Positions 1,214 through 50,281 of a stretch of DNA of 64,000 nucleotides are shown in pieces (position 1 is the stretch's first letter; each line of letters begins with the position of its first letter). Origin of the DNA: Phlebopus portentosus (lineage: Eukaryota > Basidiomycota > Agaricomycetes > Boletales > Boletinellaceae). The stretch is from the NCBI GenBank assembly GCA_037892935.1, contig JAYXKI010000006.1, positions 744,001 to 808,000 on the forward strand, read 5' to 3'. The notes under the pieces are model-generated. The model was given only the letters and a program-made list of their open reading frames with translations. It was not told the origin of the DNA and did not search any database. The position numbers and the translations under genes are program-made.

Positions 1214-3559
1214 CTATCGAGCCGCGCGACGTACATTTTCTGTCCATTTGATCCTGGCTTGGAGCTCCGTCAAACCGAACATAATCTCCACGTCATACGT
1301 TAACTCCCAGAATGCCTTGTCGTTGTAGAATTGGAAATTGGAGAATCGGCATAGACATGAAAGATCAGCATCTATAACACAGGCGAGATCAAACATGTCT
1401 TTATGCCGCAAACAGACTAGATCAGATTGCCATTCAGCCGAATAGATAAAAGTTTACATGCCTTCGTTCTCGTCATACCATTTCGGAACGGGATCTTCAT
1501 CGGCAAAACTGTGGATCCTCGTTTTGATTCTTCTCGCAGATGAGATGTCTTCAACTAAACAATGATAAGACCTGCTGAACCGGCTTGCTTCCTTCACTTC
1601 GTTATTCTAAGATGAAAATCGGACACTAAATTGGGTTTTACACCGAGCAATGTTCGAACGTTCACTCACCTTCTTTACAATGATGTCGAACTTTCCTGGC
1701 ATCATCAACTGGCCCTTGAGGTTCGTATACTGCAAATGTTTCCGTCTACGATGCTGCGAGTCATTCTTGTCATAAGCTGTGCTGCAGACAAGTCCATATG
1801 TACACCTAGTGACTCGGCTCGACACTATGTTCTCCAAACTGTATAATACGTTCCCGTGAGCTACAGCCTTTGACCTGTAAGCAGCAAAGATCAGCGTGAC
1901 AAACTGCCCGGCCAGAAATATGAAAAACAGTATACAGATCAATCGCTGTCGGACGACGAATTTCAACTCCATCACTTCTCAGTGCGTCTTCCAACTTTAA
2001 GAACAACCAGTCACTTGCAGCAAAACCGCCGACAAGCCAGACAGGCTAAGAAAACAATCAGTACATTTGTAATCATCGTTCTGTGCGAAGCCGGCTCTAC
2101 CATTGACTTTCCACCGCATCTAGCTATCTGAGCTTTGATCATTTTGAGTGCCTCGGAAATCGAACGTTCGAAGCAGCTCGCCACGTCTTTACTAAAGTTA
2201 CAATGATAGATGGTCAAGACGTTTCTTTGATCATAAGGTACTGGCACTCACCCATCGATCCGCAGACGTCCCTGTCTAACGCCTAATCTCGCATTGTTCT
2301 CATCGCGATTTCCAACGCGAAGCCATGAGATTTTTCTCTCGTCCTTGAATTGTCTCTTGGTAGAAGTTTCAAAATGATCGTCGATCGCTTCCTTTAGAAT
2401 TTCCGGATTGTCGTACTGCGATCCTCGTAAGAGCTCTGACATATGGTCAGGACACTTATACACGGCATCAGAACAAAACATCCGCTTACTTTGGACAAGG
2501 TTTCTCGCACTATTGTTGACGAATACAGAACCGGCGAATTGACCTAGTGTGAACGTCAGAATCGGTTTACGGCAGACGTGGAATCGGCAAACAATCAGAT
2601 GAGGTGAGCTCCTTAAGGCACAATGGCGATGAATTTGTGACTTCATAGGATGTCATATCGAGAGTTCCTCCACCTAAATCAGCAATCATAAAGCGGTATC
2701 CACGCTGTAAGGGGAGAAAAGGCATGAAGCAAGGAATTCGACGCAATGAAAGAGCTAGTACTCACATCGAGGTTAGGAGGACAGAACCCCCCGGCGAGGC
2801 AGGAAAGCGCACTGGCTTCACCCTCCGACACGAAGCTGATCTTTGCGCGCGCTTCTTCGCTGTCCTTTACTAGCTTTCCCAAGACTGCCGCTTCGCGCAT
2901 GCGTTGCTGCGGTAAGCCAGCCCATCCATTTGGGTGGCTCAGTACGAACTTGATCCGATCCATTGACGCTCTTCAGAAGATCGGCACTGTCGGAGTGATG
3001 AATCCTGATGTACTTGACTGTTTCTGAATAAAGATAGCCAAGGAAATCACCCATGACAGTCGTCGGAGTCATAGATTGTGGTAAAGGGCTGATCTCCAGG
3101 CCTTTGTATCAATCGTCATACCGGCAGGCCTCATATACATCTTGAAGCTTGATGAATGAGGTCAGAAAGGCTTGGAGTACTGTATGTACGATGAGACGAC
3201 TTACTATTGCACTTTGAGCCACCCTTCGCATTCCGCTTCGACATCAGTGTCCTCAGTTGCAGCTGTTGCACCCGCTGCTTTCATTTCCATTCCCTCGCCG
3301 TAATACATAATTGAAGGTATCTTGCTGTCACCCGACGTCTGGTCTGTGAACCTATAAAGAATGGATAAGGAATGACTGGGCATCAAGTTATCGGTACATG
3401 CCTTGTCACCGAGTGGATTTGAGGAATTTCTCCCGGTCTGAGGAATGCATAGCAAACACCACTAAACGTTGTGCCTACATCGATGCCAATGATGAGTTCG
3501 TTGTGAGGTCCATTATGAGGCTGAGGGTTCAATATTCGAGGTTGCTTTGCACTGTTCAT
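1214..3559 (-). pseudogene. H1: HSPA12-type Hsp70-like ATPase, disrupted copy
   Basis: This copy belongs to the Hsp70/actin-like ATPase superfamily. Phosphate-1 motif GIDVGTTFSGVCY is in exon 1, phosphate-2 motif IADLGGGTLDMTSYEV in exon 4, and the adenosine loop PVWLVGGFAASDW further on. The C-terminal tail ends LTELQARIKWTENVRR, as in its three paralogues. Exon order follows H2, H3 and H4. Exon 3 is broken: the frame shifts near 3103 (one base missing) and shifts back near 2964 (one base extra), so the conserved helix region MGDFLGYLYSET is reachable only out of frame. Donor sites also look worn: GC donors end exon 1 and the next-to-last exon, and a GTTTGC donor sits near 2590. The gene is head-to-head with P1, 208 bp away. 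A sequencing error could mimic the frameshifts, but two in one exon plus altered donors favour decay. Confidence 0.65.
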
Positions 3560-3767
3560 GATTGCCGTAGGACAAAGAAATAGATAGTATGTATGCAGTA
3601 TGTATGGACGAGAGGCTGAGCCCACGATATATACAAGGACGGATGCTAAGAAGGTCTCGCCTGAATAACGCGTGTCTGCCTCGCCCAAAGGTCATGTCTT
3701 CTTAATTCTGTGATGTAGAAAACGACAGAGCAGCCTACACATTCTTAGACGCATACCTCCACCACGC
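3560..3767. promoter_or_regulatory. Shared divergent promoter of H1 and P1
   Basis: 208 bp separate the two start codons, so regulatory DNA must be shared. An ATATATAC stretch at about 3627-3634 could serve as a TATA element for either direction. The element conserved in the other three units is at best a weak match here (CTGAATAACG at 3661). Confidence 0.5.
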
Positions 3768-5228
3768 ATGAGCATCCTTTGCTCAATCCTCTCCCATCCC
3801 CTACGCATCTTCATTCCGGCAGGCCTATTCTACGAGCAATTGAGGTGCGCAATGAATGCTACCGAAAAAATCATCCGAATCCTAAGCAACTACAATAGCG
3901 CCGTCGACGAGACCGACGAGAATCCAGAGATGACAGCTGATAGGACACGATCACCAGAGCCGTATGGCCATGGGTCTTCAGGGCCTTTCCCACAAGCACG
4001 GAGACGTCCAGCCAGGACAGGATCAACAGTGAACCGGTATGAAAAGCTTTATCGCTGAGAGAAGTGCACAGCGCTGGACTCTTTTTGCGAGTAGATCTTC
4101 GTTGCGTCAGAGCATGAACTTTGACTTACTGAACATTCTCTCTTGGCCAAAGGCAGACAGCGTGAAGATGACAGGAAAATACAAAGGAAAAATCACCGGC
4201 AATCGCCGAAGGGGACTCTACCTACTCTACCAGACATTCAGCAAGAGGAGGAGGAAACTTCGCGTAACACGATTACATGTAACCGCGATGATCAGAGCAG
4301 CAAACGGCTGTTTCAAGACACACTTGACCTTTGTTCAGAGACAGACGTTATCAATGCATGTCGAGCGCTCAACGAGAAAATCAATGACGTTGCCCTTTCT
4401 TTGGTCGACGAGTGGGTCGAGACACCATCCATATCACGCCTTCGGATCCGAAGCGGTAGTTCTTCCGGTTTAGGCCAGACCGAAGCAGAGTATCTGCGAA
4501 ATGCCACTGGACAATGCCTGTATAATTTGATCAGAAGTAAAAGATCATTACAACCGTCATCAGAAGTGCAGAATTGGGTGACGGACGCTCTCCAAGCTGT
4601 AGCGGCCTATGAACTCTCGGTCATCATCTCTAGCACGTTCTGTCCGGGGCTTTCTTCTCAGGCCGATGTCGAAATGAAAGAAACTTTTGAGAACATGCTT
4701 CGCTCAGGTACTTTCTTGTACAGATTGATCAGTGTATTTAAGAGTTGCTTACTGATTATCGGCAAAGAATCTCTGCCAGCAGCATTACGATGGAGAGCCC
4801 TAACATATACACACTCGGCTTCCAACTGTAAATCTGAGAATGTCAAGAATTTCGCTACAAATCATGTAGAGGATCTTGCGTATCACTTCCAGTCCGTTTT
4901 CGTCCTCGCAGGAGAGAAGAATTCCTCGGTCTTTATGTCACGAATTCAGGAAGTCGTGGCAGAGAGCGAGATAATCGAGTCGGCGATGAGGCTATCAGAA
5001 ATTCTCAAGACAAAACTTTTCTCAATCTTCCTCGATATACACGTAGTCCACCCGAGCACAGACTTTCGAGAAGATATCATGAAAGTCGAGACCAACTCGA
5101 CGCTGAATGCTGTCAGGGCACGTCCTGTCCTATGCACACTTGAGATCGGTCTCCGGGAAGTGCCAGCTCAAGACAGATCTGGGAGGATCCTTCTGAAAAC
5201 AAAGGTGGCATTAGCGGTAAGAAAATAG
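3768..5228 (+). CDS. P1: uncharacterised helical partner protein, shortened copy
   Basis: Three exons (3768-4036, 4157-4707, 4768-5228) give 426 residues. It is a paralogue of P2, P3 and P4 and belongs to no named family I recognise. The N-terminus (LSHPLRIFIPAGLF) is hydrophobic and is followed by a charged, low-complexity linker to about residue 120. A helical region then contains CRALNEKINDVALSLVDEW. The C-terminal domain has ALRWRALTYTH, SVFVLAGE and a final LEIGLREV...LLKTKVALAV strand-like segment that all four partners share. The 60 nt intron at 4708-4767 is a multiple of three without stops, so it could also be retained. The middle exon present in P2-P4 (about 60 residues) is absent. 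It is divergent from the broken H1, so it may be losing function, though its frame is open. Confidence 0.7.
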
Positions 5229-5599
5229 CTTTTATGTACTTTGACATTTTTGACAGTAATTTTAGCCATGAGCGGCCTTATTTCACTCAGACCAAAGCAA
5301 TTCGGGAGTATTGTATAGGTGTTGTCGAGTTTATTGTTCAGAAATATGCAAGTCATGTAGTAGTACAGTGCACTTCCAGCACGGCAGGAGTGGGCAGACA
5401 AATCAACGCAACGGCACGGGGTCATGAAAATCATTCTCAATAATACAAAAGCGGTCACTTCAGCCAATCGATCTTCACCGGCCCACTTTTACGAAAAAGG
5501 AGAGTAAGGCGTGCGCATTGCGAGGTAGACTGAGAACAACTTACTATTTGGTGACACCCTGGAAATTCAGATCAGCATCTATCAAGCTCCAAGAAAAGA
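5229..5599. other. Intergenic, convergent 3' ends of P1 and H2
   Basis: 371 bp between two converging stop codons. No gene, repeat or RNA is recognised. It presumably holds overlapping 3' UTRs. Confidence 0.5.
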
Positions 5600-7933
5600 T
5601 TAAAAGCGACGAACATTCTCCACCCATTTGATTCTTGCCTCGACCTCCGTTGTTCCGAACTTCAACTCTACGTCAAAGGATACATTCCAGTATGGCCCAA
5701 TAAGAGGCGTTATGAATGCTTCAAGCAGTGAAGATGTCGGGCTTGGATCCCGACATAAGGAAGAAAGGTCTGCCTCTAATCTGCATATCGTTCGGAATTT
5801 CTCTAACGAAATCGGTTGAGCTCGTCATCCGAATTAAATGACTTAGGATCATACCTTTGTTCTCGTTGTACCAGTAAGGTACCGGAGGATCTCCGTCGTA
5901 GCAAAGAAGCTCTGCAGTATAGTGCGAAGCCCTCTCCTTGGAGAAGAACCTCTGACTGTAGCTTCTCGTGAATGTCTTACCAACGTCGACAGTCGATCCC
6001 TATGGAACGGCTAAGACGATTTGAACACAAATGGTGACAGAAGAGATCACCTTCTGAGCAATGACATCAAATATCGGACCAATGAAGGCGCCGTTCGACC
6101 TGTTCTCGATGAACTCAGGTTTGCTGCGGTGGTCAGAACGTGAAGAGTCAAAACGAGTATAACAGTCTGTTCCGTAGGACGTCGGGCAGACTCGGGCTAC
6201 AACCATGCCGTCGAGATGATGTAGAACAGCACCGTTCGCCACGGCCTTGGATCTGGTCGACGTGATCAGGGACATTTTCTGCGCTTCAACTGCTCAATTA
6301 GACTACATACAAGTTTGTATCGGGAGTTTGGATGGCGGTGCCGCTCTGTTCAAAAGCCTTCCGCAATTCGTTCAAGAGAAAGGAGCTTGATCCAAAACCT
6401 CCTACCAGCCAGACAGGCTAGCAAACCAATAAGCAGAAGCAGAACAGAAAGACAATTAGTAAGTACCGTCGTTCTCTCGTCACTGCGACTTGTAGCGAAC
6501 TGCTCTCGAATTGATTCGACAATATCCATGATGGAATCTTCAAAACATGAAGCTAGCTCCTCGCTACGGAGAGATTAGATCAAAATAACTGTCACATGTA
6601 ATCTAGATACCGTACCATTTTAGGCGGAGAAAGCCGGCAGAGATACCTAGTTCCTGGGTATTGTCTCGCCGTCCTCCGATTCTAAGCAAGCCATCTTCTT
6701 CTCCAGTGAACTGCGGCTTTGTTGTTTGTTCAAATTCATCGCTTATGAAGCTTTCGATGTTGTCTTCGTCATCGTATTTGGAATTGGCTAGTCGTCCTAT
6801 GAAATAAAGGTGTCAACGAAACGAACATTCCCGAAGTAGCATGTGAGCTTACTCCGAAGTAAGTCTTTTGCGCGCATGTTTACAAACACGGACCCGGCGA
6901 ACCGACCTTTCCAAAAGTCTAAATCTATTGTTGAAAATAAAGATTGATACTCACAATCCGGTTTAGTAACTTCCTTTACTTGCAAGGGTGACGTCCCAAC
7001 AACCTCGAAGGTAGTCATATCGACTGTGCCTCCTCCCGCATCTGCAATCATGAAACGAAATCCTCGCTAGGGATATAGTCAGCGGCAAATTCCGCCAATT
7101 GAGACAAATAATTATTCCTACCTTCAGGGTATTCGGTCCCAAACCACCCTGTAGACAGGCTAACGCACTCGCCTCTCCTTCGGTGACAAATTTAATTCGC
7201 TTGCGACCTTCATCGGTGTCAGGAACGAGTCCGCCTAATATCGCAGCAGCACGATAACGTTGCTGCGAATATCCGGACCATCCATTGGGGTGACCAAGAA
7301 CATATATCGCATCATCCTTAACTTTGTTCCATAAATCATTGTCCTCTATGTGTGCTCCGGAAATAAATCGGCCAGTCTCATCAGCAAGATAGCGCAAGAA
7401 ATCCCCCATAACCTCTTCAGCAGACTTTCCGGGGGGGAGTTCGCCGACTCTGAGTCCATTAGTCTCCAACTGTCGACCAGGCGGTCGAAGGTGCATCTTG
7501 AAGCTGGAATATTGAAGATAATGAGTTAGACAACATTATAGAGCAAGATCGAAACGGATGCCCACTGTTCCGCTTTAAACCATTCCTTTTCCAAAGCCTC
7601 ATTAATGACCATGCCCTTTGTCGTAGCGGCGCCAATAGCTTTCGGCGCAGCATAGTCATCTAAGTCATAATAAATAATGGATGGAATCTTGCTGTGCCCT
7701 ACGGATTGATCTGAAAATCTACGCAAAGCGTAGTCAATGCCGATATCATAATTTATAAATCATGTAAATACGGCTCACTTCGTCACTTGCTGGACCTCCG
7801 GCACCACATTCGGACGAAGTATTGAATATGAGACGCCGCTAAAGGTCGTTCCCACGTCTATACCAATTATGATGGAAGTCTTATTTCCAGTGTAGCGCTT
7901 TGTCCGAAGAGAGCGAATATCGTATGAAGCCAT
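5600..7933 (-). CDS. H2: HSPA12-type Hsp70-like ATPase
   Basis: This is an intact copy of about 596 residues in 11 exons; exon 1 is 7779-7933 and the stop is at 5600-5602. Motifs in order: phosphate-1 GIDVGTTFSGVSY (about residue 25), LRPPGRQLETNGLR, connecting GEASALACL, phosphate-2 IADAGGGTVDMTTFEV (about 235), adenosine loop PVWLVGGFGSS (about 380), YWYNENK, and the C-terminal FDVELKFGTTEVEARIKW. It has the ATPase fold but neither a classical Hsp70 peptide-binding domain nor an EEVD-like tail. This matches HSPA12-type proteins, which are expanded in fungi. It probably acts in the cytosol or nucleus, since no signal peptide or membrane segment is seen. It is divergent from P2 with 310 bp between starts. 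What it folds or moves is unknown; the paired P protein is the obvious candidate client or partner (inference). Confidence 0.85.
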
Positions 7934-8243
7934 GGTAGGATGTGCGAGCTGTTCCCTGGGGAAAGAGCAAGTACTTTAAGTCTTATGAAGTTGAGGCCCC
8001 AAGACACGACCCATAGGCAATTTGGTGAATAGAAGTCTGGACCGTGCTTCAGATGACTACATGCACGAAACATGTGTTTCATATATCAAAGCATGGAGAG
8101 AACTCAGCTTTATATACGCAAAGGTTAGTTGTGACTTGTATTTCATTCCTACCGCCTCTAGCTCTGCTTTTGTCTACGTTGTCACCAAGAAAGTGAGGTA
8201 AGGTTATCTGTGCAGACTCAATATTTAGGGTATTGCCTGAACA
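7934..8243. promoter_or_regulatory. Shared divergent promoter of H2 and P2
   Basis: 310 bp lie between the two starts. On the minus strand a TATATAAA-like box lies at about 8108-8116. The element shared with units 3 and 4 lies at 8025-8035, pointing towards H2. Confidence 0.5.
8025..8035 (-). promoter_or_regulatory. Conserved H-promoter element, unit 2
   Basis: GTGAATAGAAG on the plus strand reads CTTCTATTCAC towards H2, 92 bp from its ATG. The same string with the same orientation occurs upstream of H3 and H4. Confidence 0.45.
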
Positions 8244-10221
8244 ATGTTTAGAGTGATGTCTGTCGTAGACATATCGCGATTCACCATTACGAAACCATCG
8301 GCAGACTTCTGGCATGGTACCAAGGAGCTACTCAAACAGCTTTTGGAGATTGTATTTGGATGCATGTGTCTGGTTTTCTTGACACTGATGCGGCCTTGTT
8401 GTACAAGGCTTGTGCCCAACAGCAAGGATAGCGATCAGGTCACAACCCCAGAAGAAGCCGAAGACCTCGAGTCACAGGCAATCCATGAGCCAATCGGAGA
8501 GGTAGCGCAGAGGAGTAGCACGGAAGCAGCGAGGATAGTTGAGAGGCATTCGCATGTAAGGTAATGAGAAATTTGAATGAGCCTCGAAGCTCACGGAACC
8601 CATGCAGCCAGACGAAGATGAGCGTCTATCAATGGGAAAGAGAAATCGCGAGAGCGAGCTTCCTGACACCTCTTACCCCGTGCGGCAGGATGGTGAAGCA
8701 TTGCACGAGAGCCCTATCCAGAAGGTCAGGAGCTCTGATCCCTATCCGGTTTGCGCGACGGCAGACGACAACGCGTTCGTTATCACTCCGAAGAAGATAT
8801 ATCTGATATCCAGCCCCGAGGCACCAGAACCAAGCCGTTCAAAGAAGCTGAAGTTGGATCAGATTGACATCGGGCCTCCACGCCAGCAACGGGTATTCGT
8901 ATCTCCAGCTCGTTCAAGGATAGATTCTATCCCGAGCACAAGTAGCAAAGAACCAGTTTCACCATCCACAGCACGTGCTCCTCAAGTCGAGGGCGGCCAT
9001 GGTGGTATCAACGCGACAATCGACCAACAGCATCGTCGCAACGAGGCCAATAACGTAAACGACGGAGGACACGGCGAAGTTCATGAATCAGCTCCAAGCG
9101 GCCCTTTCACCTTCCTTGATGAAACAGCAAGACGCTTCTTCATGAACAGAGCCGATGCATACACCGAGAAGGAAATAATAGACTGGTCAAAGTTGCTGGC
9201 TTCCCGCGTCAACACGCTTTCCGCGTCCCTTATTGAAGGGATCGTCAGGCGAAAGTCTGGAAGTGATGTACGGCATTCCGATGCGGATGGAACCGAAAGG
9301 CGGATAGGAGAACTTATCAAGAAAGGCCTTGGGACTCGCCTTTACACGGAACTTGCTGAAGCTGGCCAAGATCGTGAAGAACTGTCCATCGATGATATCT
9401 CAGCATCCCTTCATGACAGTCTTGATTCGTGGTTGACATTCTGCATCAATCTGGCGATGAAACCCATGCTGTTTGGGCTGAGTCTGAGAACAGTGAATGA
9501 TTTAGAAGACATTTTCCGCCGAATGGCCGACCACGGTTTGAGTTCCCCCTCCTCTATTTTCATGTTGCTGATTAAAGAGTGCAGAGCCGGAGCTGGCGCG
9601 ATGTTGGAAGCAGATAAGGTACTATTATACCGTCTCGCCTCGTGCGATCACCCAGAGAACGCAGGAGCTCGTCGATGGTATGTGTACTTTGCGACAGATA
9701 GATCAGGAAGAGTATGCCATTCTTGAAGAAATCTATCATCGCTACCTAATTCATAACGGTAAGCATCTGCTGGAGACGAAGCAAGTCTTTTACTGACTGT
9801 ACCGGCAGAGTATGGAGGACAATTTGCATTGCATTGGCGAGGATTGTTCTACAAATACGAGCTTGGACTCCCTTCTTACAGGAACGCGATCAAACGAACG
9901 GAAGAGGTCTTTAAACGGGGCATTCTGCAGATTTTCACGATAGCTGGAGTCGAACTTCCAGAACCAGACAGTTTCCGAGACAAGCTAGAGAGGATTGTTA
10001 AAGACGCCGCCACATTAGCGGAGCGTACGAGGACTGGCGTCTTTTCGCAAACAGTAGAAACTGTCATAGTTGATCCTGGGAGTCCATTTGACGGAGAGTC
10101 GATGGTGCCCGTAGAAGGAGACGGCAATGAAGTTAAGTGTACATTGCAGTGCGGATTAGAAGTGGTAGACTCGGATGGTCAGCGGAGAGTTTTGATCTCG
10201 CCAGAGGTGTTATGTGTTTGA
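8244..10221 (+). CDS. P2: uncharacterised helical partner protein
   Basis: Five exons (8244-8555, 8608-9535, 9578-9618, 9665-9758, 9809-10221) give 595 residues in frame. The N-terminus has a hydrophobic segment, LLEIVFGCMCLVFLTLM (about 32-50), followed by the cysteine pair RPCCTRL. It may be a membrane anchor with acylation sites (inference). A long charged linker with KKLKLDQ (possible nuclear signal) runs to about 275. The conserved helical core follows: FFMNRADAYTEKEI, then LDSWLTFCINLAMKPMLFGL and FRRMADHG. The C-terminal domain starts at LHWRGLFYKYELGLPSYRNA (about 465) and includes FTIAGVELP, VKDAATLAERTRTGVFSQ and the end CTLQCGLEVVDSDGQ...LISPEVLCV. I know no described family for it. 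It is the most complete of the four partners, divergent from the intact H2. Confidence 0.8.
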
Positions 10222-10569
10222 GATTTCTCATTTGTATCTGGTTGTCTGTGCAAAAGGTGTTCATTGCGTTTTACGAATGAAATGTATCTGCGAACTCACT
10301 GCGGCGGTAAATTATCCTTTTGTCTCCCACTCTTCACTTATTCGGGACAGCTGTACAATTTCCCTGCCTTTTGAATATAGAACGAGCTGATTATGCTTGG
10401 TGCCAGTGATGGGATGAGGAGAGCGCATGCATGTGGAAGAGAATTTCGAAAAGAATATACAAGGCCGGCGGCGCGCCGAGAACTTCCTAAACAGGTACCC
10501 AGTGATCCAGTCGTGCTAGCCGACCGAGCCGGTTTGCGTGCAAGGCACTCTCATGCGACGACCACCACC
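10222..10569. other. Intergenic, promoter of the serine-rich gene
   Basis: 348 bp between the P2 stop and the next start. An in-frame ATG at 10393 exists upstream, but the CCACCATGG context at 10570 is the better start. Nothing else is recognised. Confidence 0.45.
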
Positions 10570-13567
10570 ATGGTCAGCGCTGAGTCTCCCGCTCTTGTTA
10601 CCGCTGACGCCGGCGGGCCGGCTCAAGCCCTCAACAAGCTCGAAACTCGCCCCTCCATGTCTAGCGGACATATGAGTGAGGGCAGCTCCTCCCTCACGCG
10701 TCGGTCCCGTGTGCGACGAAAGAATTCTCGTCGTGCCGAAGATTCTTCCTCTGATATTGTATCGACTTCTGGCGATATATCCAGCAGCCAGCTGTTTGTC
10801 CAAATTCCGTCGACCGACTCGCGTCCTGGTTCTTCTCCGAAAAGTCTGAGTGCTTTGGAGGTTAGTACCATCGCTCGTCACGGTATTTACAAAGTCCGAC
10901 GCGTCCTATCAACTTTTTTCCTCTTTTGACCTTAGACTGGTGCACCACCAAGACCCCCACGTTCGCCCCAGCGAGTGCAAACAGCACCGGTCTCTGGAAA
11001 TAAGGAGGACAATCCAGACCAACAACGGTTGCCGCGGCAGCGGACACGTAGTACAGAGCCATCAGCTACCCGTCCGGTGATAGACGATATCCGAGGCAGA
11101 GAGACGCGTTCAGAAAATGGTCAACATTGGAAAGGCCAACGTGTGAGTGCTTCTAATTCATTTTCTCACCATGGAGAACACTGTCTGATGCTTTTCTGGC
11201 ACAAAGTCGCGGGGTGTGAGCTTGCCTAGGCACGCTTTTCGCAATAGTTCGGTATCCGATTCCTCGGAACAGCCTAGCCCGCTAACGCCCAACGCATTCA
11301 GCGGCACCCCTCTTGTGCCCGTGTTCGCGACAAGCCGTCGTTTTCAGCACCAGCCGCGCGATTCGGGTGTCACTGAACAGTCGACAGCGTCGAGTTCCAT
11401 TTATCCAAAGTCCACCTCTACCGAAGGTTCTTATCCTTCTCCTCCTTCCTTGCCTGCACAAGACATGGGCGACTGTCACATTATCACCGTCGATCCTGCT
11501 GATGATTCGCACCTTGATGCACTCCATGAGATGGATGCTGATGAAGTTTCTTATCGTCTTCGTCTGCTCATGCAGAATAACTATTATCTTCCCCCAGCGC
11601 ATTCGAAACCGTTCAGCGAGATACCCTCTCCGGATACCCCGAGGAAGTTTCTTGCGAAATCCTCTTCGCCTACATTCTTCGACATTTTCAAAGTCGTTAA
11701 AAAGAAGGCCGCAGTATCGTTAGACAATAAGATAGCCTCGGCGCCTTCCGCGCCTATACTTAGAACGACATCTGACTCCTCCACTTTATCTGGTCTTCTA
11801 TGTCCTCAGCAGGCTTCAGCTCCTGTACAACGTATGCGGACAGCTTATTCTGCACCCCAAATTCGCCAAGAAGCTAAAGGCAGGGTTGTAGTCGTTCGAG
11901 AACGAGTGGAGGATCTTGCAAGCGTCGCCAAACAGGCCGAACAAGAGCTGAAGGTGCGGGAGGCCGAACGACAGAGAAATGCTAGCGATGCTTCCCGCTC
12001 TGATCAGATTCAGGCGCAATTTGTGGATCCTACGGATTCTGTAGACCTTCCTCTGGTGCCTCCTAGCGAGTTTTTTGGACCTCAGGCGGCTTTGCTTCGC
12101 GGCATGGGCATCGATTCTTCATTGGGAGCAGCACTACTGGCAGATCAACTTCCTCCATCAAGTCCAGGAAGCTGGTCGGCTGAATCAGAAGACATGGCAT
12201 GGAGGAAAGCCATTCTACACGCAGCTGTTGATCATTCACTCAATAACTCGTCAATGGACACACCCGCACGTTCGGGTACTAGCTCTAGCCCAATTCGTGC
12301 GCTGGATCTTCATTCTCCGACGTCGGCATCAGCATCGCCTTCGATGCTTTCGCCATCTGTCACATCTCCTGCAATGAGTATCCCGCCATTACCCTCCCGT
12401 TATATGGACGAAGCGAAGCCACCTGTCATTACTGGCCATTCTGAGTTTTCCCAAAAGCCCATTATAGGACAGAGTATCCTAAAATGTATTATAGACGACG
12501 AAGAAGGTGGTCAGGCTCCAGCTCACGGCGAACTGAAAAGACATGAGAGCTCAGAACTACTGGCCAGCCAGCAATCCGGAGGCGAAGCGGAAAAGTCTCG
12601 CGGCTTACTTGTGGCGAACGAGCCTGAGCGTGCATCATCTCCGACGGTACCAACGATGCCACTGCAGCCTCCACCAAGGCGATCAAATCCAACGTCTAGT
12701 GGATCATCCTCTGACAATGCCCAAGACCAGGGCGATCAAGAGGACGATAGCCCTTTGGTCGCCGACACTAGCCACCTGCAGGCCGACCAGGACACCACTC
12801 TTAGACTTTCAGATGTTTATGAATCTCACGTCGGATTGAGCGGTGCTTTCGGCAAGCTTACACCTCCAGGATCGCAGCACAACTCAGCGACACTGTCCGC
12901 CGTCAAACCTGGTACAGCAGAGTCTTCTCGAACAATGGAGAATTTGAGTACGACGAGCGGTTCGCATTATTCGGATGATGATGGAGAACTGAATACTTTC
13001 CATACCCCTCAGGAACATACGTTGGCGTCAACGATCGTTGGATCGCGTCCTTCGTTTGGATCTTTGTTCGTACCTCGAGAATCATGCGAGTCGTCACAAC
13101 CTTCTCCGACTACATCTGCATTTCGAGATGCTTATGATCGAGGTCAATACGCTGATAGTCTTGTCGGTCACTCTGATATCAATACCTTGGGAGGTAATTC
13201 GCGCATTGCTTCTCGTGCTTCCAACCATTCCGATCCTTTTTCATTCGTTTCGCCTCCGCCGCGCGTTTCGTCTATGCACGTAAACAACTCTATGAGCGCT
13301 TCCCATCGGTCACGCGACGCAAATCAGCCTTCGAGACTGGTTACCGGTGTTGCAAGAGGCTTAGACGATACAATTGGACAGGAGGAGCCGGGAACGCCTA
13401 CCGCATTGCATGTTCCACGACTGACAGTACAAGATCTGTTAGCCCAGGGATCGCATTCAAGTCCTTACACTGCGTCTCCAATTTCGTTCTTTGATGCCGT
13501 CGAAATGCAGAGTCATCATGACGACTCAGAATCTTCAGACTCGGATAATGGTGATGATGACCACAAC

Positions 13568-13599
<32 letters not shown>

Positions 13600-14188: not shown

Positions 14189-14751
14189 TTTCCCCCTTTT
14201 TTTATTTACCATTCCACGATCTCAGTATGGATTTCCATCTACTCATCATTTACCACGTATATACCCGGGCTCTTGGAGGTATTTGCATATTTCTCGCCTT
14301 TCTACTTGATGGTTTGTGTTCTATTTCCACCGACTTGCACTTCTGACGTCGTTACTGCATCTTTTCCAGCTCCAACTATGTGTCATTCCTTTATTTCACA
14401 TTGCCTGCACACTCATCCTTGGATTGCTCATTCTCTTTACTCTTTCCCATACCCATGTTGGGGATGTCCGCATTTTCTGACGTTTACTGTATTAATTGAT
14501 CACATTATTTCTTACTTATGTGCTATCGAACGCAAACTAGTGCTGCCATTTTTCAAATACAATGACTCGTAATTTGAGAGAAGAAAAGAGCGTGATTGAC
14601 TCATGAGAAAAGAGTGAGCAGTTGCAGAAGCTGTACAGTACTATTATGTACTACTCCTAACTAGAGCCGTAAGCCGCGCGGTTGTCCGTAATAATGCGTG
14701 CCGAATGTCGCGTCCTCTTGCTCTCTTCCTCTTTCCACACCATATTCCGCC
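14189..14751. other. Intergenic, 3' UTR and promoter
   Basis: 563 bp, rich in T and C on the plus strand near 14190-14560, as expected for a 3' flank. No gene is recognised on either strand. Confidence 0.45.
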
Positions 14752-16649: not shown

Positions 16650-17325
16650 TAATATATGACTTAATGCGCATTGTGAGTCTATCGTGCGCTTTGATTGCTC
16701 ATCGTATTTATCTCGTCTTTTCAAATGATTTAGCTGGAGATCTGACTTACAATTACTGATGACTAAAAGGTACGTTACGCACGACGTTTCTACGATTTTT
16801 TAAAATTCTTTTCCGAGCTCTTCCCGGCATCCTGTGTATCTCCTACCCACCGCTCATTTGTTCCCTTGGGTTAGACCTATCTATCTGTCTTTACGCACTC
16901 CATCTTTTATTCCTCGTCGTTTTTCTTAGGCTTTTTTAGATTCCAGCTTTGCTTCCTTGACCATTGGTAAACGTCAGATATCCTGTGCCTGTTGTAATCT
17001 TAGTCTTATACGTTCATCTACTACTTGGTCTGGCAGTCTCGTGCTTTCACCCTTTAGATCGAATTTGAGTTGATGACGTAAATCGGCATTGTTTTTTTAC
17101 GGAAGTAAACCATGAAGATTTGCTTATGTTTGGTCCTACCTTAACTTGTAACCGTCATCATACACAGTCGTCATCTGAATTTCTCGAGGGTGTAGACAGA
17201 CAATTTTATTTCACAAGATGACGATGGACATGTCTATAAATGCAACAGAACTAAACAGAGCGAGATCGCAGACAACAAATAAATCACTTCACAATTTCGA
17301 TCGATGCAATGCACACTGTCATGAT
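16650..17325. other. Intergenic, convergent 3' ends
   Basis: 676 bp between the CS-domain gene and P3, which converge. It is T-rich and has no open frame with gene-like structure. Confidence 0.45.
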
Positions 17326-19011
17326 TCAGGTGAGTAAAACTTCTGTCTTCAATAGCCATTTCTCGTTTCCGTCTGTGTCTGTCGCGCGTAACCCGAATTT
17401 TATGGTGCATTTGACCTTCCCTTTGTCTAATTCGTCTGCAGACTTCATGTACTTCTTGTCGCACTCGGTCTCCGGTTCGACCATAACGACCTCGGTATTC
17501 TGCGAAAAGACAGCCGTCTTCGTGTATTTAGCCAATGTAGCCGCGTCTTTGACAATGTTCAATGTCATCCCAGCAAGGTTGGCGTTGTTTGAAATCTCAG
17601 GACGCTCAGCGCCTGCCACTGCGAAGACTTCACGCAATCCCTCCTGAAGAAACCGATCGGTTTGTGAGATTGCCGTTTTATATGACTCAAGTCCGAACTC
17701 GTGCGCGTGCAGCAAAGCTCCCCAATGGAGTGGGACTTGCAACGGACACTTTGGCCCAACTATGACTTGCATTAGTAACTTGCCGTTGCAGAAGAAAATG
17801 ACGCTTACCTCCGGTGATTGTTCGTTCATAGATTTCTTGAAGGACGGCGTACTCTAACTTTCCCACGTCTTTAGGCGGCACATGCTGTAATTTACCTATG
17901 TCTTCCAGAGTTTTAGTACCCTGGTCGACTCTGCGTGGGGTATCATAGTCCTTAATCAGATTCCAGCACTGAGCAAGTTCCGGTTCTATGTATCACCATC
18001 AGCATCACCGGATGAATCTCACTGTGAATGAGAACAAACCTTTATCGGCCATGCTATTACATATGCGTTTAATTTCTTCGTCATTCCGTAACTTCAGTCC
18101 GAAAAGCACAGGTTTCATTGCCAGGTATACGCAAGATATCGACCAAGCATCGAGGCCGTCACGTATGGAATGGTCGACGGCGGTAGAACTTCTCGTGTTC
18201 ATTTTGTTATTGGTAAGTTCATCGACCAGCCGCTTCCCTAGAACCTTCCGAACGAGTTCTGGAATAGTTTCATTTCCGTTGGCAGGGTTGCGGGTTTCAG
18301 CCTGTTGTTTGTCCTGCAGGAGGACGCGCATTCGGTTCTTCTCTCTAATCAAGTGTCCTGATAGATGGTTTATGCGGCCGTTCAAGGATTTGCACAACGT
18401 TATCACCTCATTCTCCGAGTAATCGTCATTTTTCTCCAGGAACGTCCTTCTTGCGATCTCGTTGCCGAATATGTTTGAGTCAACGGTGATTCCCATTACG
18501 GCAGTGGAAGGAGAAGGAGCCGCATTGATCATAGCGTTGTATCGCTCGGAAATAAACAAGCCGGTGAGCTCGTCATTTTCGGGGCGCGAAATTGATTGAG
18601 CGTCAATGCCAATGCCTGAACCCGCAGGGCGAGCTTCGCCTTCTATGTTCAGGAGGTTTTGTTTCGTATTGCCGTCACTGGGACTAATATCATTTCCCGT
18701 AGATGAGCGCTCATTTTGGTAGGACTGTGACGCCCGTGGTTCAGTTGAGAAATGCTTGGAACCGATAACTGGACCTTACATTCGTCTGCGAAGAATCGGG
18801 ACTTCGTGCTGTCTTACTGGTGTCTTGCGTGTTCTTCGAGTCCTGCCTTTGCGATTCTATGTCACTGGGTTTGACTTTACGCTTTCCAAGACAGCTCCGC
18901 TGCGCGAGACAGCAGGAATAGCAGGACGTTTCTGAACATAAAGCCTATGTTTCCACAAGGATTCCAAACACTTACGAACACTTCGCGTAGCAGTGCCAGG
19001 AATCTCGACAT
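17326..19011 (-). CDS. P3: uncharacterised helical partner protein
   Basis: Five exons (18976-19011, 18780-18944, 18040-18724, 17809-17985, 17326-17765) give 500 residues in frame. The first exon is only 36 nt (MSRFLALLREVF). The next begins ALCSETSCYSCCLAQRSCLG, so the amphipathic N-terminus is followed by a dense cysteine cluster, as in P2. This would suit lipid modification or metal binding (inference). The core has TFLEKNDDYSENEVITLC, INHLSGHLIREKNRMR, VLGKRLVDELT and AWSISCVYLAMKPVLFGLKL. The C-terminal domain has LHWGALLHAHEFGLESYKTA, FAVAG, IVKDAATLAKYTKTAVFSQ and the end CTIKFGLRATDTDGN...LLKTEVLLT. It is divergent from H3 with 356 bp between starts. Confidence 0.8.
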
Positions 19012-19367
19012 TTCTTTAGGTGGGGTCAGTGAAACTGCAATGACGAGTCGAGAGCAACCCACCTTTCGTGTCCGATGAAGTGGCTCAATGCAGGAAAGGT
19101 AAGTACCAGGCGAGGAGGCCGAGGAACGCCGGCAATAGTTGACGGTCCTTAGATTTAAGGTAGGTGCTGGTGTTCGCTTTATCAATGAAGAGACTTGCCT
19201 TGCATGTTTCATATCATTTATTCACTGCTGCTGTCTTCTATTCACATGCATGGTCGCGGTACGTTACTAAGGGATGTCTAGTGAAAGGCCCTGGTATTAA
19301 AGGAGTCTCTAATGGTTGATCAACTCGCCTACCTCACCTCACACGTTGACTTGATAGATCACACGAA
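19012..19367. promoter_or_regulatory. Shared divergent promoter of P3 and H3
   Basis: 356 bp between starts. It contains GTTTCATAT (about 19205), also seen in the unit 2 promoter, and TGTCTTCTATTCACA at 19232-19246. A TATTAAA-like box lies near 19296. Confidence 0.5.
19232..19246 (+). promoter_or_regulatory. Conserved H-promoter element, unit 3
   Basis: TGTCTTCTATTCACA lies 121 bp before the H3 ATG. The identical 15-mer lies before H4, and its 11-base core lies before H2. Confidence 0.5.
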
Positions 19368-21732
19368 ATGTCTTCAAACTACATCGAGCCCCTTCAGAAG
19401 CAACGGTATTCTGGGTCAAAGGTTGCCATCGTCATCGGCATCGATGTAGGCACTACCTTCAGCGGCGTATCTTACACCGTACTTCGTCCTGGACAAGTGC
19501 CGAAAATACACCCTGTGACCAGGTAGTTCCCGTCCGATGAATAGTTCTTATTTGATTCATTTTCTCCAGGTTTTCAGACCAGTCTACAGGAGATTATAAA
19601 ATCCCATCGGTTATCTATTACGACAGGACAGGGGTTCCGAAGGCTATCGGGGCAGCGACTATGAAGTCGATGGTTATCCGAGAAGCTGAGCAACAACATT
19701 GGTTTAAAGCCGAGCAGTGGGTGAAGCTTACCAGTCGATCCGTCACGCCCTAATTGCTTGATATTCTGTTTACTCGCAGTTTCAAGATGCATCTCCGCCC
19801 TTCTGGCCAGAAACTTGAAACATACGGCCTGAAGTTAGGAGAACTTCCTCCCGGGAAAACTACCGAGGAGGTCATGTCCGATTTCTTGCGTTATCTCATC
19901 GATGAAACGAGTCGATATATTTCCGCAACTCACATAGACGAGAGTGAGCTATGGAACAAGGTCAAAGATGAAGCGGTGTATGTCCTTGGACATCCTAACG
20001 GGTGGTCGGGTTACACTCAGCAGCGATATCGGACTGCTGCAGTGAAGGGTGGACTTGTTCCGGACACAAACGAGGGACACAACAGGATCAAGTTTGTTAC
20101 AGAAGGAGAAGCGAGCGCATTGTCTTGCCTGAGGGGCGGATTAGGACCGGATCTGAAGGTACACTCAATCACCATACATCTTGAAAGGTTTGCTGAACGA
20201 CCTGAATAGCGGGGATTCCGATTTATGATTGCCGACGCTGGAGGAGGCACGGTTGACATGACTACGTTTGAAGTCGTTGAGACATCACCCATACAGTTGA
20301 AGGAGTGCACTGCGCCGGACTGTAGGTCTCGGAGGAAACGCCTTCTTACAGCATTAGCCTTACGATTAAATCTGAACAGGTCGATTCGCTGGTTCAATAT
20401 TCGTGAACATGCGCGGAAAGGATCTGCTTCGCAGTAGCCTAGCTTTTACATCCCGTAAAACGGCACGGAGCTGATATATTTACTTACAGGACGGTTAGCA
20501 GACTCGAAATATGGTGACGAGGATAACATCAGTGCCCTTATAAGCGACGAATTTGAGCCCGAGACCAAGATGCAATTCAGTGGAGATGGAGATGGGCTGC
20601 TTCGAGTTGGCGGTCGTCGAGAGAACGATGCTCTTCTGGACATATCTGGTGGTTTCCTTCTGTTACATCGGTGCGTGTTCGGTTTCTGAGAAAGGCTAAT
20701 GTCTGACAGTCCGTGAGGGACGATCTGGCCCATTGCTTTGAGCACTCTGTTTCTGAAGTTGTAAAATCAATTCGGGAGCAATTCACGAAGAGCCGAAGTG
20801 ACGCCAAAACCACGGTATTTCTTCTACTCTCTAACGCGTAGCTTTCTTTTGACCAAGATGCATGAAAGCCCGTCTGGTTGGTTGGGGGCTTTGGTAACAG
20901 TGCTTATCTTCAGAGGGAGCTGCGTAGATCATTCGAACAAAGTGGGACCAGGATCCAAACGCCAGACACGAGTCTGTAAGTCAGAGGTACTCAAAAGTAC
21001 TCTTGGCGACACGATTTCTAATTGGTTCATTAGTTCCAAGGCTGTTGCGAACGGAACTATTCTTCATTACCTTGATGGGACCGTCGTAGCACGAGTTTGC
21101 CCGACGACCTATGGCACGTATTGCTACACCCGTTATAACCGTCTACGCTCCGATCACCGGGAGAGACCTGACCTTGTCGAACACGAATCGGATGGCGACT
21201 TTATAGGTCCAATATTCGATCCCATTGCTGAGAAGGTACACCAATTCTTCTGAGATACAGCAAACGTGCTTCTACATATTCTCTTAGGGATCTTCTATAG
21301 AAGTCATGAAGACGTTTTCCTGTAGTTACAGAAGGAAAGCCTTCTCGAGAGCAAACGCATCTCGATGCAATGCAGAACTCTTGTGCTACGACGGTGACCT
21401 TCCGGCACCATATTGGTACAATGAAAATAAAGGTATCCTGACAGACCTCGGTTGAGGCGGATGTCTAACTTCTTTGAATAGACAAATTCAAAACGATTTT
21501 CAAACTGGAAGCCGACCTTTCTTCCTTGCGGGATACTCTTGATCGTGGCACATCGTTGTTCGAGGTTATCCTTAACCCCACGTTTCGGCCTTACAAGTAC
21601 CTGGTTTTCGACATAGAGCTCAAGTTTGGGACAACCGAGGTAGAAGCAAGGATCAAGTGGGAAGAAAATGTCCGTCGATTCACTCTTGTTTCTTACTTCA
21701 AGGTACTGATAACTTTTTTCAGGGTATCGTGA
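19368..21732 (+). CDS. H3: HSPA12-type Hsp70-like ATPase
   Basis: Eleven exons, starting 19368-19522 and ending 21482-21732, give 609 residues in frame. Exon sizes 147, 112, 54, 181, 97, 107 and 202 nt are identical to those of H4, showing a shared origin. Motifs: GIDVGTTFSGVSYTVLRPG (phosphate 1), LRPSGQKLETYGLKLGELPP, GEASALSCL, IADAGGGTVDMTTFEV (phosphate 2), PVWLVGGFGNSAYL (adenosine), APYWYNENK and FDIELKFGTTEVEARIKW. No signal peptide or membrane segment is seen. As in H2, the canonical Hsp70 substrate-binding domain is missing. It is head-to-head with P3. The 3' half from about 20630 is repeated almost exactly at 34402-35716, so this gene or a very recent sister was a duplication donor. 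Confidence 0.85.
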
Positions 21733-22360
21733 AATAGTAAGTCGGCTGATCCAGACTGTCCGCAGTTCCTTCTCATCGCCTACCGATTACAGTGGCCCCG
21801 CAAAGATTCATTGGCTCGAATGAACTCGGAGGGTACGAATACCCTGATTCCTCCGATTCGGCACTTCTGATCGGTTCTCCTATGCAATTCTCGTAGCCTA
21901 CGCTTTCATTCGTTTCCTTAGTGATAGTGCTAGGTCGCTGTCAACAGTCTGGAGTTATTGTCATTTTACTCTTGGGATCGAATTATGAATACCACTTCAA
22001 GTCGTTAGCTAATGAAAAAGTACCTCTCTTGTTAGTAATGCTTGTCGCATCCACGAAACTTTAGAGAAAGCAGAAGAGAAGATATTCGCCGTTTGCAGAT
22101 CGCTCCAGATTATCTAATTGGACAAGAATCGTCGTACGTGGAGATCCGTAGCCATTCTTTCTGAGTCCTTCACTTGTCCCGCCTTGAGGTTTAGAACACA
22201 GGCAATATCGATGCAGATAAACAAGGAAGAAGCGGCTATGAACGATGTGAGAGTAATTCTTAAATACAAGAAGCCACGAAATTCGGGTGAAGTTGTTCTT
22301 TTATATAGCAATCTAGCTCGGTGACTACAAGCACCTCTCTTATATCAGCCTTCCAATCAT
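21733..22360. other. Intergenic, convergent 3' ends of H3 and P4
   Basis: 628 bp. The part up to about 21960 has a diverged counterpart downstream of the H fragment at 35500-35700. No gene is recognised. Confidence 0.45.
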
Positions 22361-23515
22361 TCAGGTAAGCAAGACCTCTGGCTTCAATAACAACTCCTTT
22401 TCCCCCTCTACACGTAATCCGAGGGTTACGGTGTATTTGACCTTTCCTTTGTCTAACTCATCTGCAGACCTCATCAACTCCTTCTCGTACTTGCTCTCCG
22501 GTTCGACCAAAACAACCTCGATATTCTCAGAAAAAACACCGGTCCTCATATACTTTGCCAATGTAGCTGCGTCATGAACGACATTAGATATCATTCGCTT
22601 TGTAGAAGGTTTGTCCCAGGAAGCCGAAGCGTCAATGCCTGCAACACAGAAGACCCGATCGAGCCCTTGTTGAAGAACTTGTTCAGTTCGTGATATGGCC
22701 TCCCTATAGGAATGGAGTTCGAGCTCGTGCTTGTGTACCAGAGCTCTCCAGTGGAGAGGAACTGGTGATACGTAGTCTGTTCATGCGAGTCATTTGTGAA
22801 CTTCCCTCCTCCGATGGAATGAATATAATCGCACCTCTAGCAATGCCTCTGCAGTAAGTATCTTCAAGAAATACATTATCGAAAGTCATCATATCTTTCT
22901 CTTGTGTTTGATTCAGTTCTTCAAGGGCTTCAACAAGATCCTGATCGATGGTTTCGATCTCACGAGGAGGGTAGCACTCCCTGAGTAATGTCCAGCATGT
23001 CTGTAAGTCTGATTCTTCTCGAGTGATCAAAATCATCAAATGAAATCCAAAAGAAATGAGAAAGAGAACGGACCATGCTGAGCCATGTGAGTGCATATGC
23101 CTTCAATTTCTGCACCGATACGCAGACTCCATCCAAAGAGCATTGGTTTTATTGCGCGATACATGCAATATATAGACCAAGCATTGAGACTCTCTCGGAT
23201 CGTTCGATTAACAGCTGTAGGTGCACCTCCGTTTATCTTGATATGGGCAAGCTGCTGACACCGATCTCCTATAGCATTGTGCACACATTGTGCAATCGTA
23301 TCTTCTTTCCAATTGGGTTTGCACATCTCTAGGCATTCGCGCATACGATTCTTCTCTCTGATCAGGTGTCCCGAAAGTTGCTTTATGCGACCAGTCAAAG
23401 ATGTAGTTGCTGAAATGATCTCGGTCTCTGAATACTCGTCCGCTCTCTCCATAAATGCTCGTTTTGCAGATTCTGAAATGTTATTTCCGAATGTGTCCAC
23501 TGCAAAGTCATCCAT
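22361..23515 (-). CDS. P4: uncharacterised helical partner protein, short N-terminus
   Basis: Three exons (23074-23515, 22835-23017, 22361-22761) give 341 residues in frame. The first ATG in frame is at 23515 (MDDFAVDTFGNN). An upstream exon carrying the hydrophobic/cysteine N-terminus of P2 and P3 was not found, so either it is lost or it lies in the 566 bp to H4 with an unclear splice. The core has AFMERADEYSETEIISATTS, IKQLSGHLIREKNRMR and AWSIYCMYRAIKPMLFGW. The C-terminal domain has LHWRALVHKHELELHSYREA, FCVAGIDAS, VVHDAATLAKYMRTGVFSEN and the end YTVTLGLRVEGEKELLLKPE. It is divergent from H4. Confidence 0.75.
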
Positions 23516-24081
23516 ATCAGTCAATCCTCATTGTCTCGTGCCAATGACCTATAACTCACAACTCCTTGGGATCGAATCATGTGAACTCAAGCTGGTAAGC
23601 ACAGTATGATATCCCCACTTGATCCAAACTGCAGCTTTCAATACTAATGCAAGAAATTTGTTGGTCGTCAACCAGGCAGGTATTTTTCCATAAAGATTTT
23701 GAAACAATAGCATTTTCCTCTTGTAGATGGTGGTCCAGAGCTAACACAAGATGGGGGTAAACTGTCCGTTTGGATGTGACCAATGATAGTAGGGCTTGTA
23801 GTGTGCTGTAGGTTAGTTGTCTTTCGTCTTTAAGACAGAACAGACATTGATTTAAGTTTGTGCCTTCATATCAGCCACGCTGTTCACGCATGTTGTTCAA
23901 AGTTATATCAGCGCTGATGTCTTCTATTCACAATCATGTAGGAACGTGTTTACCGCGAGGCTTCAGTGTTGCAGCATCAAACCTCAAAAGGCTTTCCTAA
24001 TGTACCATCTCAAATGTCCCTTCCCTCGCTCCGACTTCAACATCCCCATTCATTCAAGTTACTAGTAATTCACATCTCATC
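23516..24081. promoter_or_regulatory. Shared divergent promoter of P4 and H4
   Basis: 566 bp between starts, the longest of the four. It contains TGTCTTCTATTCACA at 23918-23932, identical to the unit 3 element. An undetected first exon of P4 may also lie here. Confidence 0.45.
23918..23932 (+). promoter_or_regulatory. Conserved H-promoter element, unit 4
   Basis: TGTCTTCTATTCACA lies 149 bp before the H4 ATG, in the same orientation as in unit 3. Confidence 0.5.
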
Positions 24082-26460
24082 ATGGCTTATTACATTGATT
24101 CTCTTTTGAAGAAAGAATATTCTGGACCAAAGACCTCTGTTGTCATTGGAATCGATGTTGGCACAACCTTCAGCGGCGTATCTTATTCTGTACTTCATCC
24201 TGGAGCAAAGCCATTAATCTATGCTGTCAACAAGTAAGTCGCATCAGTTCTATTCTATAGCACAATTGCAGCCCTAAACATTTCTTCTCAGATTCTCAGA
24301 TCAGATAGCGGGGGATAACAAAATCCCATCAATCATCTACTATGACAGCAGTGGAGCACAACAAGTGATAGGACCCAAGACCATGACAGCATCAACGATT
24401 ACCCGAGCAGTACAAAATAACTGGTTCAAATGCGAGCAGTATGTGATATTAACCGCTCGTCTTGGGAGTTATAACAAACTCGTCATTTAACTGCTAGCTT
24501 CAAGTTGCATCTTCGCCCTCCAGATCAGGAGATTGAGACAAACGGGATGCATCTGGGAGGACTTCCTCCTGGAAAAACGAGAGAGGAAGTTATGGGGGAT
24601 TTCTTGCGCTATCTTGTGAATGAGACACGGTGTCACATGATCCGATCAAGAACTTATTCTGCAGACGTATACGACAAGACTGTCAAGGATGAGGAAATGT
24701 TTATCATTTGTCATCCCAATGGGTGGAAGGGTCCTTCTCAGCAGCTCTATCGGGATGCCGCAATAAGGGGTGGCCTTGTTCCTGACACTGAAGAAGGACA
24801 TAAACGAATCAAATTTGTCACAGAAGGAGAAGCGAGTGCATTGGCCTGCTTATGGGGCCGTCTAGACCCTGAGAATCTGACGGTGAGTTCATCCCTTCTG
24901 TATGTTGACATGTTGATTGTTAAGACTGTGCTTGTGCTATGTATTTAGGTGGGATTCCGCTTTATGATCTGTGATGCCGGTGGTGGCACTGTTGACACGA
25001 CAACATTTGAAGTCGTTGGAACATCACCACTGGAGTTAAGAGAGTGTGCTATTCCAAGCTGTAAGTTATCCTGGTAGTATCTGAACTTGAGATAAACGTC
25101 GAGCAGGTCGATTCGCTGGTTCGCAGTTTGTTAGCATAAGCGGAAGAATGCTACTAGAGCGTGAGTTTATGTATTTCTTTTACTGGAATAAAAACATATG
25201 TCTCTGTCAACAGGAATTCTGGAAGGGTCAAAATATGTCAACGGCGAGACAATTGATACCTTGATATCACACGAATTTGAAAGGAATGTGAAGATGCAAT
25301 TTTCTGGTGATGATGATGCTTTCTTGCAACTCGGATATAATTTAGAGGATGATGAGGATCGGGGTATAATTGCTGGCTCCCTAAGTTTACGCTGGTATGT
25401 TTTATTGCTGATGTTACAACTTCAACTGAGGTGCAATAGTGAGGATGTTGCAAATTGCTTTGAGCACTCTGTTTCTCAGATCATCGAGTCAATTGACGAT
25501 CAGTTTTCGAGGAGCAAAAGTAACAAGAGCGCAACTGTATGTTGTATTTTTTATTGAACATCTCCTTTTTTTCTGCTGACGAGTGCGGAAGCCCATATGG
25601 CTTGTTGGAGGCTTTGCCAACAATGAATATCTCAGTAAAGAGCTCAGCAGAAGACTAGAACAGCAGGAAATTCGTCTCGAGATTCCAGATACAAATCTGT
25701 ATGTCAACCTTGCGAAGCATTTCCATTATAGGGATTAAATTTATTTCTTAGATCCAAGGCTGTCGCAAACGGTTCTGTATTGCATTATATCGATAATCCA
25801 GTCATAGCCCGAACCTGTTGGACAACATATGGAACGATCTGTTACACTCAGTTTGACTTCTCTCGATCTGACCATAGAGAAAGGAAGGATCTTGTTGAAT
25901 GTGAGAGGGATGGTTTGTTCATAGGACCTTTGTTTGATAAATTAGTCGAGAAGGTAAGTAATCTTACGGTAGTTCCAGTATCGACTAACAGCTGTGGACA
26001 GGGAACTTCTATACCTGTGGGGAAGAAGTTCGTCTGTACCTATCACAGGACCCCCTTGTCCAGGGAGACTGCACGACTGAAAGCTAACATTTTACGGTAC
26101 GACGGAGACCTTCCAGCACCTTATTGGTACAATGAAAATAAAGGTATGTCAACAGTTTCCGGTCAAGCAGGTATGGAGCTAAGCTTTGAAATAGACAAGT
26201 TCAAGACGGTTCTCGAGCTCGAAGCGGACCTCTCTTCCTTATGGGATTCTGTTGAGGCAACGGAAATTCGTGGCTCCTCTTTGCTTGAGCTTCTGTTTAG
26301 TTCGATTCTTCCGCCCCACAAAGATCTTGTTTTCGAGATAGAACTTGACTTGGGAGGGATGGAGGACAAAGCAGCGGTCAAATGGAAAGAAAATGTCCGT
26401 TTATTCACGTCCATTTCTTACATAGTTCAGATGCTGATAGCTTCCTTAGGGCGTAGATAA
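24082..26460 (+). CDS. H4: HSPA12-type Hsp70-like ATPase
   Basis: Eleven exons (24082-24233, 24292-24438, 24498-24882, 24949-25060, 25107-25160, 25214-25394, 25440-25536, 25592-25698, 25752-25953, 26002-26143, 26195-26460) give 614 residues. Motifs: GIDVGTTFSGVSYSVLHPG, GEASALACL, CDAGGGTVDTTTFEVVG (phosphate 2, with Cys in place of Ala at the first residue), PIWLVGGFANNEYL, APYWYNENK, and the more diverged C-terminus FEIELDLGGMEDKAAVKWKE. It is more divergent from H3 than H3 is from the fragment at 34.4 kb, so unit 4 is an older duplicate. All frames are open and splice sites are canonical. Confidence 0.85.
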
Positions 26461-27795: not shown

Positions 27796-27842
27796 AAAAG
27801 TCTCAGAAAGGCGGATCCGTCGGGAAATATGTCCGCTGGATC

Positions 27843-47945: not shown

Positions 47946-50281
<2,336 letters not shown>

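Follow-up and report, generated by a model that had tools for sequence, protein, structure and literature searches.

Head-to-head gene pairs of an Hsp70-like ATPase and a mushroom-family partner protein as a candidate two-gene module

ATPases of the HSPA12 type, a branch of Hsp70, are not known to carry the usual peptide-binding domain, are expanded in fungi without clear roles and have no cofactor that we know of. Here we describe a 64,000-nucleotide stretch of DNA from a wood-decaying fungus (the window; C6:744001-808000, on one of the 23 contigs of a 38.4-Mb genome) in which genes for an Hsp70-like ATPase (H) repeatedly lie head-to-head with genes of a second family (P). We establish the anatomy of these pairs, their pairing at five loci, their co-duplication and the kinship of P with a family of Agaricomycete proteins, and we tentatively favour, though it falls short of probable, a reading in which H and P work together as a two-gene module, with P as the co-chaperone partner of H. 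A back-to-back partner gene would give a concrete, testable way into the working of the HSPA12 branch of Hsp70, and H-P co-evolution can be studied in the duplicated and partly decayed pairs of the Sanghuangporus cluster. A literature search by title found nothing on the H/P gene pair, from which we claim no absence from print.

Paired H and P genes in the window and across the genome

Gene models, obtained from a simple gene finder, from splicing by hand and from spliced alignment guided by proteins, placed four head-to-head pairs in the window (H1 minus and P1 plus, H2 minus and P2 plus, P3 minus and H3 plus, P4 minus and H4 plus), confirming the positions and orientations proposed in an initial annotation made from the sequence alone. 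The 'four-copy module' of that annotation stands as far as four pairs are present, but three are intact and one (pair 1) is decaying. H2 (5544..7933, minus; 596 amino acids (aa), with no stop or frameshift), H3 (19368..21737, plus; 595 aa) and H4 (24082..26464, plus; 597 aa) are intact Hsp70-like ATPase genes of 12 exons each. H1 (1163..3559, minus; modelled by spliced protein alignment to H3 and to the distant copy H6) is a probable pseudogene, and because its exon 3 carries two frameshifts (near 3102 and 2960) and its model contains two GC donor sites, it is probably dead or mis-sequenced.

All four P genes in the window are open. P1 (3768..5228, plus) has an ambiguous start, with two in-frame ATGs, and encodes 394 aa from ATG 3852 and a longer product from ATG 3768; it is without the segment equivalent to P3 residues 280-346. 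P2 (8256..10221, plus) encodes 579 aa, and its first intron, of 75 nt, is in-frame, such that its retention would give 604 aa and add a hydrophobic, Cys-rich segment. The membrane/Cys N-terminus initially ascribed to P is accordingly plausible in P1-P3, but depends on the choice of P1 start and on retention of the P2 intron. P3 (17326..19011, minus; 483 aa in 5 exons) differs at 4 of 483 residues from a database protein, A7U60_g7649 of Sanghuangporus baumii, and P4 (22361..23515, minus; 3 exons) differs at 0 of 346 from the 346-residue record A7U60_g7652, with a short N-terminus that may be truncated. These matches identify the source of the DNA as S. baumii (Hymenochaetaceae) or something very near to it.

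A fifth head-to-head pair, P6/H6, lies on the same contig approximately 550 kb from the window cluster. P6 (499 aa, 1,312,435-1,314,062, minus) was first seen as a weak P1 match (E 0.02) at 1,312,522-1,312,926, adjoining the already located H6, which runs on the plus strand from 1,314,282; 219 bp separate the two starts. H6 is intact, 37-40% identical to H2-H4, and has a tail exon that stays open over about 1040 codons. This exon (L026 6604-9735) is in frame and of low complexity, with SRAPS repeats and Ala/Glu/Lys runs, unlike the window H copies. Assuming about ten thousand genes (our own estimate), P6 would land beside one of the 8 H loci by chance with a probability well below 1%, and the H-P pairing is therefore real, but it is a property of only one part of the P family.

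Genome searches for H (queries H4 at E<=0.01 and H6 at E<=10) gave matches confined to contig C6: H0 (about 740 kb), H1-H4, H5 (window 34.4-35.7 kb), H6 (1.314 Mb) and H7 (655 kb). Of these, H7 is frame-broken, the ATP motifs of H0 are altered and its end has decayed, and H5 (34399..35735, plus), not mentioned in the initial annotation of the module, is a truncated copy of the 3' half of H3, with 92.7% DNA identity to 20628-21970 and no P detectable alongside it in a six-frame profile scan of the window. All four intact H genes (H2, H3, H4 and H6) have a P, and the copies for which no P was detected (H0, H5 and H7) are all degenerate, in line with the earlier proposal that the pair is kept in every complete copy.

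For P, searches with P3, P2, P1 and P6, together with six-frame profile scans covering the window and three loci of 9.5-10 kb (around H0, H7 and H6), gave P1-P4 and P6. Further relatives were P8 (C6, about 1.373 Mb; from a sub-threshold P6 match at C6:1373289, E 0.18), which scores 64.4 bits against the family profile, comparable to P1; P9 (C1, 3.674 Mb; 43.1 bits); and P10 (C6, 1.533 Mb; 13.8 bits), a doubtful family member that was found, like P9, with the Boletales member P0018 as query. P10 (L065 4109-5646) has a hydrophobic C-terminal segment resembling a membrane anchor, unlike other P. Weak matches on C5, C7 and C19 were not counted as members, and profiles gave nothing at the C5 locus. 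In total, a head-to-head H stands at five of the eight P-family loci found and a P at five of the eight H loci, with these counts being lower bounds (only the best candidates were scored, and the family is very divergent). That every P has an H is ruled out by P8, P9 and the weak P10, which have none within their 10-kb loci.

The spacers between facing ATGs measure 208 bp in pair 1 (3560..3767; 292 bp if P1 begins at ATG 3852), 322 bp in pair 2 (7934..8255), 356 bp in pair 3 (19012..19367) and 566 bp in pair 4 (23516..24081), reproducing the reported range of 208-566 bp. The sequence CTTCTATTCAC is common to spacers 2-4, at 102, 133 and 161 bp upstream of the H2, H3 and H4 starts, respectively; an 11-mer in three spacers arose in 0 of 300 shuffles, and common descent may explain the sharing. 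Across all five spacers, neither heat-shock elements (in the simple forms tested) nor any 7- to 10-mer common to at least four of the five was found.

Co-duplication of the pairs and the wider P family

Maximum-likelihood trees of H and P have the same order, (1,(2,(3,4))) with 6 outside, and at the two order-fixing nodes the H tree has support of 92 and 100 and the P tree support of 97 and 100. Such a match is expected by chance for one in 15 rooted shapes, with H0, also included in the H tree, placed at a support of 50. Incongruent trees had been named in the initial annotation as a sign against the module; the trees, once run, agree, and the five P loci closest to one another all have a head-to-head H, supporting the pair as the unit of duplication, as first proposed. 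Branches are longer in the P tree than in the H tree. Ratios of non-synonymous to synonymous substitution (dN/dS) were 0.18 for H3/H4 and 0.22 for P3/P4, demonstrating purifying selection on the one pair of copies where it was estimable (the other four pairs compared were saturated at synonymous sites). Comparison with one other Sanghuangporus genome (ACEPAG) showed 26 differing sites out of 344 in the P3 core and 8 out of 380 (2.1%) in the P6 core (Fisher p 0.0006); on this measure, P6 is slow-evolving and fast evolution appears limited to the amplified copies.

Of 7996 candidates scored in a search with P6, 94 were relatives at E<=0.001, and those that are named (such as Fomitiporia, Suillus, Trametes, Lentinula, Armillaria and Lactarius) we take to be mushroom-forming fungi. 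P6 agrees with its five closest matches at 76-98% over residues 120-499 and is a clear member of this family of Agaricomycete hypothetical proteins (for example, FOMMEDRAFT_165309 and TRAVEDRAFT_169387). P1-P4 are remote members by profile, with significant similarity over the helical and C-terminal domains: they are only 19-24% identical to P6 and differ in their N-termini, and the Agaricomycete family profile scores them at 33.6-60.9 bits (60.9 for P1, 40.9 for P2, 33.6 for P3 and 40.2 for P4), with the reverse profile reaching 82 bits. A search with P3 and a profile search based on P1-P4 each returned the same 5 proteins, all from Sanghuangporus where named, and the amplified P1-P4 branch thus looks genus-restricted, within the limits of word-based searching. 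In a tree of the P-family core (299 columns), P1-P4 group together (support of 100 for P2-P4), with P6, P8, P9 and P10 across an 87% split. This tree does not single out P6 as the nearest relative of P1-P4, but scores against the P1-P4 profile favour it (38.0 bits for P6, 19.5 for P8, 3.4 for P9 and -1.9 for P10).

Pfam scans of P gave scattered matches below cut-offs, mostly to coiled-coil families; sequence comparison with solved structures gave only coiled-coil or chance-level matches; and no P6-type loci were found in the prokaryote and viral collections. The distant copy P6, by revealing a wide family, rules out P as a cluster-specific orphan. On these searches P is undescribed, as the initial annotation had it, but it belongs to a wider mushroom family, with its 94 matches, and is not unique to the cluster; the accompanying claim that P is dedicated to H does not extend to the whole of that family, given the H-less P8, P9 and weak P10.

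Other features of the window and the genome were also recorded. Carboxylesterase-like gene pieces flank the H/P cluster on both sides (window 83-797 and 47946-50281; also L024 7938-9179; PF00135 was tested for 47946-50281 alone, with the other pieces assigned by DNA similarity), which suggests a wider local duplication. A direct duplication (26865-27803 and 36303-37235, 83.6% identical) lies downstream of H4 and H5, respectively, and, together with H5, points to a block duplication. A 2OG-Fe(II) oxygenase gene is also present in the window, as three copies in tandem (52011-53264, 58062-59318 and 60004-61244; 70-71% DNA identity; PF03171/PF14226 found for the third copy). Elsewhere, an Hsp70-domain-like piece occurs in a repeat of more than 6.2 kb at L055 (C6:163001-173000), which is 96.9% and 97.6% identical to L056 (C12) and L057 (C8). 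An open reading frame in L055 (8263-8949, minus) resembles an Argonaute PIWI domain, and the repeat is possibly a mobile element carrying both the Hsp70-like piece and the PIWI-like reading frame. At L058 (C15:52547-57181), a 4.6-kb near-perfect palindrome (99.2%) bears the same Hsp70-like sequence on both arms, and inverted pairs of similar spacing are present on C12, C18 and C20.

A candidate module and its alternatives

In the two-gene module that we tentatively favour, H would be an Hsp70-like ATPase and P its partner, a protein made up of a helical bundle followed by a small beta domain; the conserved member would also have a coiled coil. The two genes would be transcribed from one short shared spacer, keeping them together, and P would bind the H ATPase domain and either control its nucleotide state or link H to clients. 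An action on nucleotide state is suggested because of the pairing and of a weak resemblance to GrpE, and the specific version that we favour would have P act as a GrpE-like exchange factor. One conserved pair (P6/H6) would have been amplified in Sanghuangporus about 550 kb away, the copies diverging quickly and some decaying, and the remote P members without H would make the P family wider than the module. Several observations weigh against this reading: sequence searches returned no Hsp70 cofactor family for P, the structural match of P to GrpE is weak, in the 10-kb loci of P8, P9 and the weak P10 the H profile matched nothing at better than E 0.5, and the four window pairs represent a single duplication history. 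Owing to the three H-less loci, we slightly lowered our confidence in the module and in its GrpE-like version and raised that in passive linkage.

Passive linkage is a possible account, about which we are more doubtful than convinced. Here a shared bidirectional promoter and whole-block duplication alone would hold the pair together, and H and P might serve the same condition with no contact between them. The shortness of the spacers fits this account, as do the CTTCTATTCAC shared by three of them (though shared descent could explain it) and the three remote P relatives without H. Recurrence of the pairing at the separate P6/H6 locus argues the other way, and the identical shape of the H and P trees fits co-evolving partners but fits passive linkage equally.

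That H instead acts on P as its client or substrate, P being a protein that evolves fast and needs its own chaperone to fold, seems distinctly unlikely: the longer P branches and the low model confidence of the P N-termini would suit a client, but HSPA12-type proteins are not known to have the usual peptide-binding domain (a point made in the initial annotation), and the P6 core is conserved and well folded in its model. A paired recognition, incompatibility or immune-type system, the likeness drawn in the initial annotation, found no specific support and is very improbable, as the local amplification, the decay of some copies, the fast divergence of P3 relative to P6 and the possible membrane/Cys N-termini are set against a slow-evolving P6, the P3/P4 dN/dS, the near-identity of P3 and P4 to strain A7U60 and the finding of no known incompatibility domain in Pfam scans of P.

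Comparison with HSPA12-type ATPases and GrpE

Hsp70 signature motifs include DxGTT, GGxT and EPxAA, in a list drawn from metazoan proteins (PMC12692333). The intact H2, H3, H4 and H6 keep DVGTTFSGV and DAGGGT (with DVGTT and DAGGGT invariant), such that H shares DxGTT and GGxT with the HSPA12 (Hsp70-12) type, as well as a length of about 600 aa. The EPxAA position of that metazoan-derived list reads EGEAS in all four, and H differs further in being paired with P and, in H6, in its long low-complexity tail. Pfam Hsp70 (PF00012) gave no match at E<=10 in any of the four H proteins, and the Hsp70 hints are weak: a profile search against solved structures reached an Hsp70 chain at E 0.14, and for H6 NCBIfam gave a chaperone model with E 0.018. 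No mention of HSPA12 occurs in the accessible part of PMC8778642. The HSPA12 name for H thus draws on two motifs, with the third differing, and follows the initial annotation, and H is a putative member only.

For P, the predicted model of the P6 family has a long N-terminal helix (116-192, a coiled coil), a helical bundle and a small C-terminal beta domain, and is confident over most of the core; P N-termini were modelled with low confidence. The P3-type model, whose N-terminal part has low confidence, shows no long coiled coil, and this feature appears to have been lost from P3. With Foldseek, neither P model had a match at E<=0.001; 1dkg was among the top structural matches of both (50 listed for each) and is the only Hsp70 cofactor that we recognised among the matches listed.

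Sequence kinship with GrpE is not established. GrpE (PF01025) was absent from the Pfam list of P0006 and from the best 25 of 159 families for 79 members, and a PF01025 search of the same genome reported only the canonical GrpE, on contig C2. Aligning P C-termini to GrpE with hhalign brought the segments expected to correspond into register, though weakly (P value 0.025 with 4 GrpE sequences; 0.047 with 16, two of them misread), and full-length GrpE matched best over a short coiled-coil segment (P value 0.0041 with 4 sequences and 0.091 with 16). A separate profile alignment preferred a different register without gaps, and its score was reached in 5 of 300 column shuffles.

P thus departs from GrpE in its much larger helical part and in the weakness of the profile comparison. 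GrpE/Mge1, which acts with DnaK/Hsp70, may resemble the P6-family model, in which a long helix at the N-terminus is followed by a helical bundle and a small beta domain at the C-terminus, and P likewise adjoins the gene of an Hsp70-like ATPase. We consider it unlikely, though worth stating, that P is a hitherto unrecognised GrpE-like protein, strongly diverged, that serves in mushrooms as the nucleotide exchange factor of an HSPA12-type ATPase and is inherited with it as a head-to-head pair; if it were, P would be, to our knowledge, the first dedicated cofactor for the HSPA12 branch of Hsp70.

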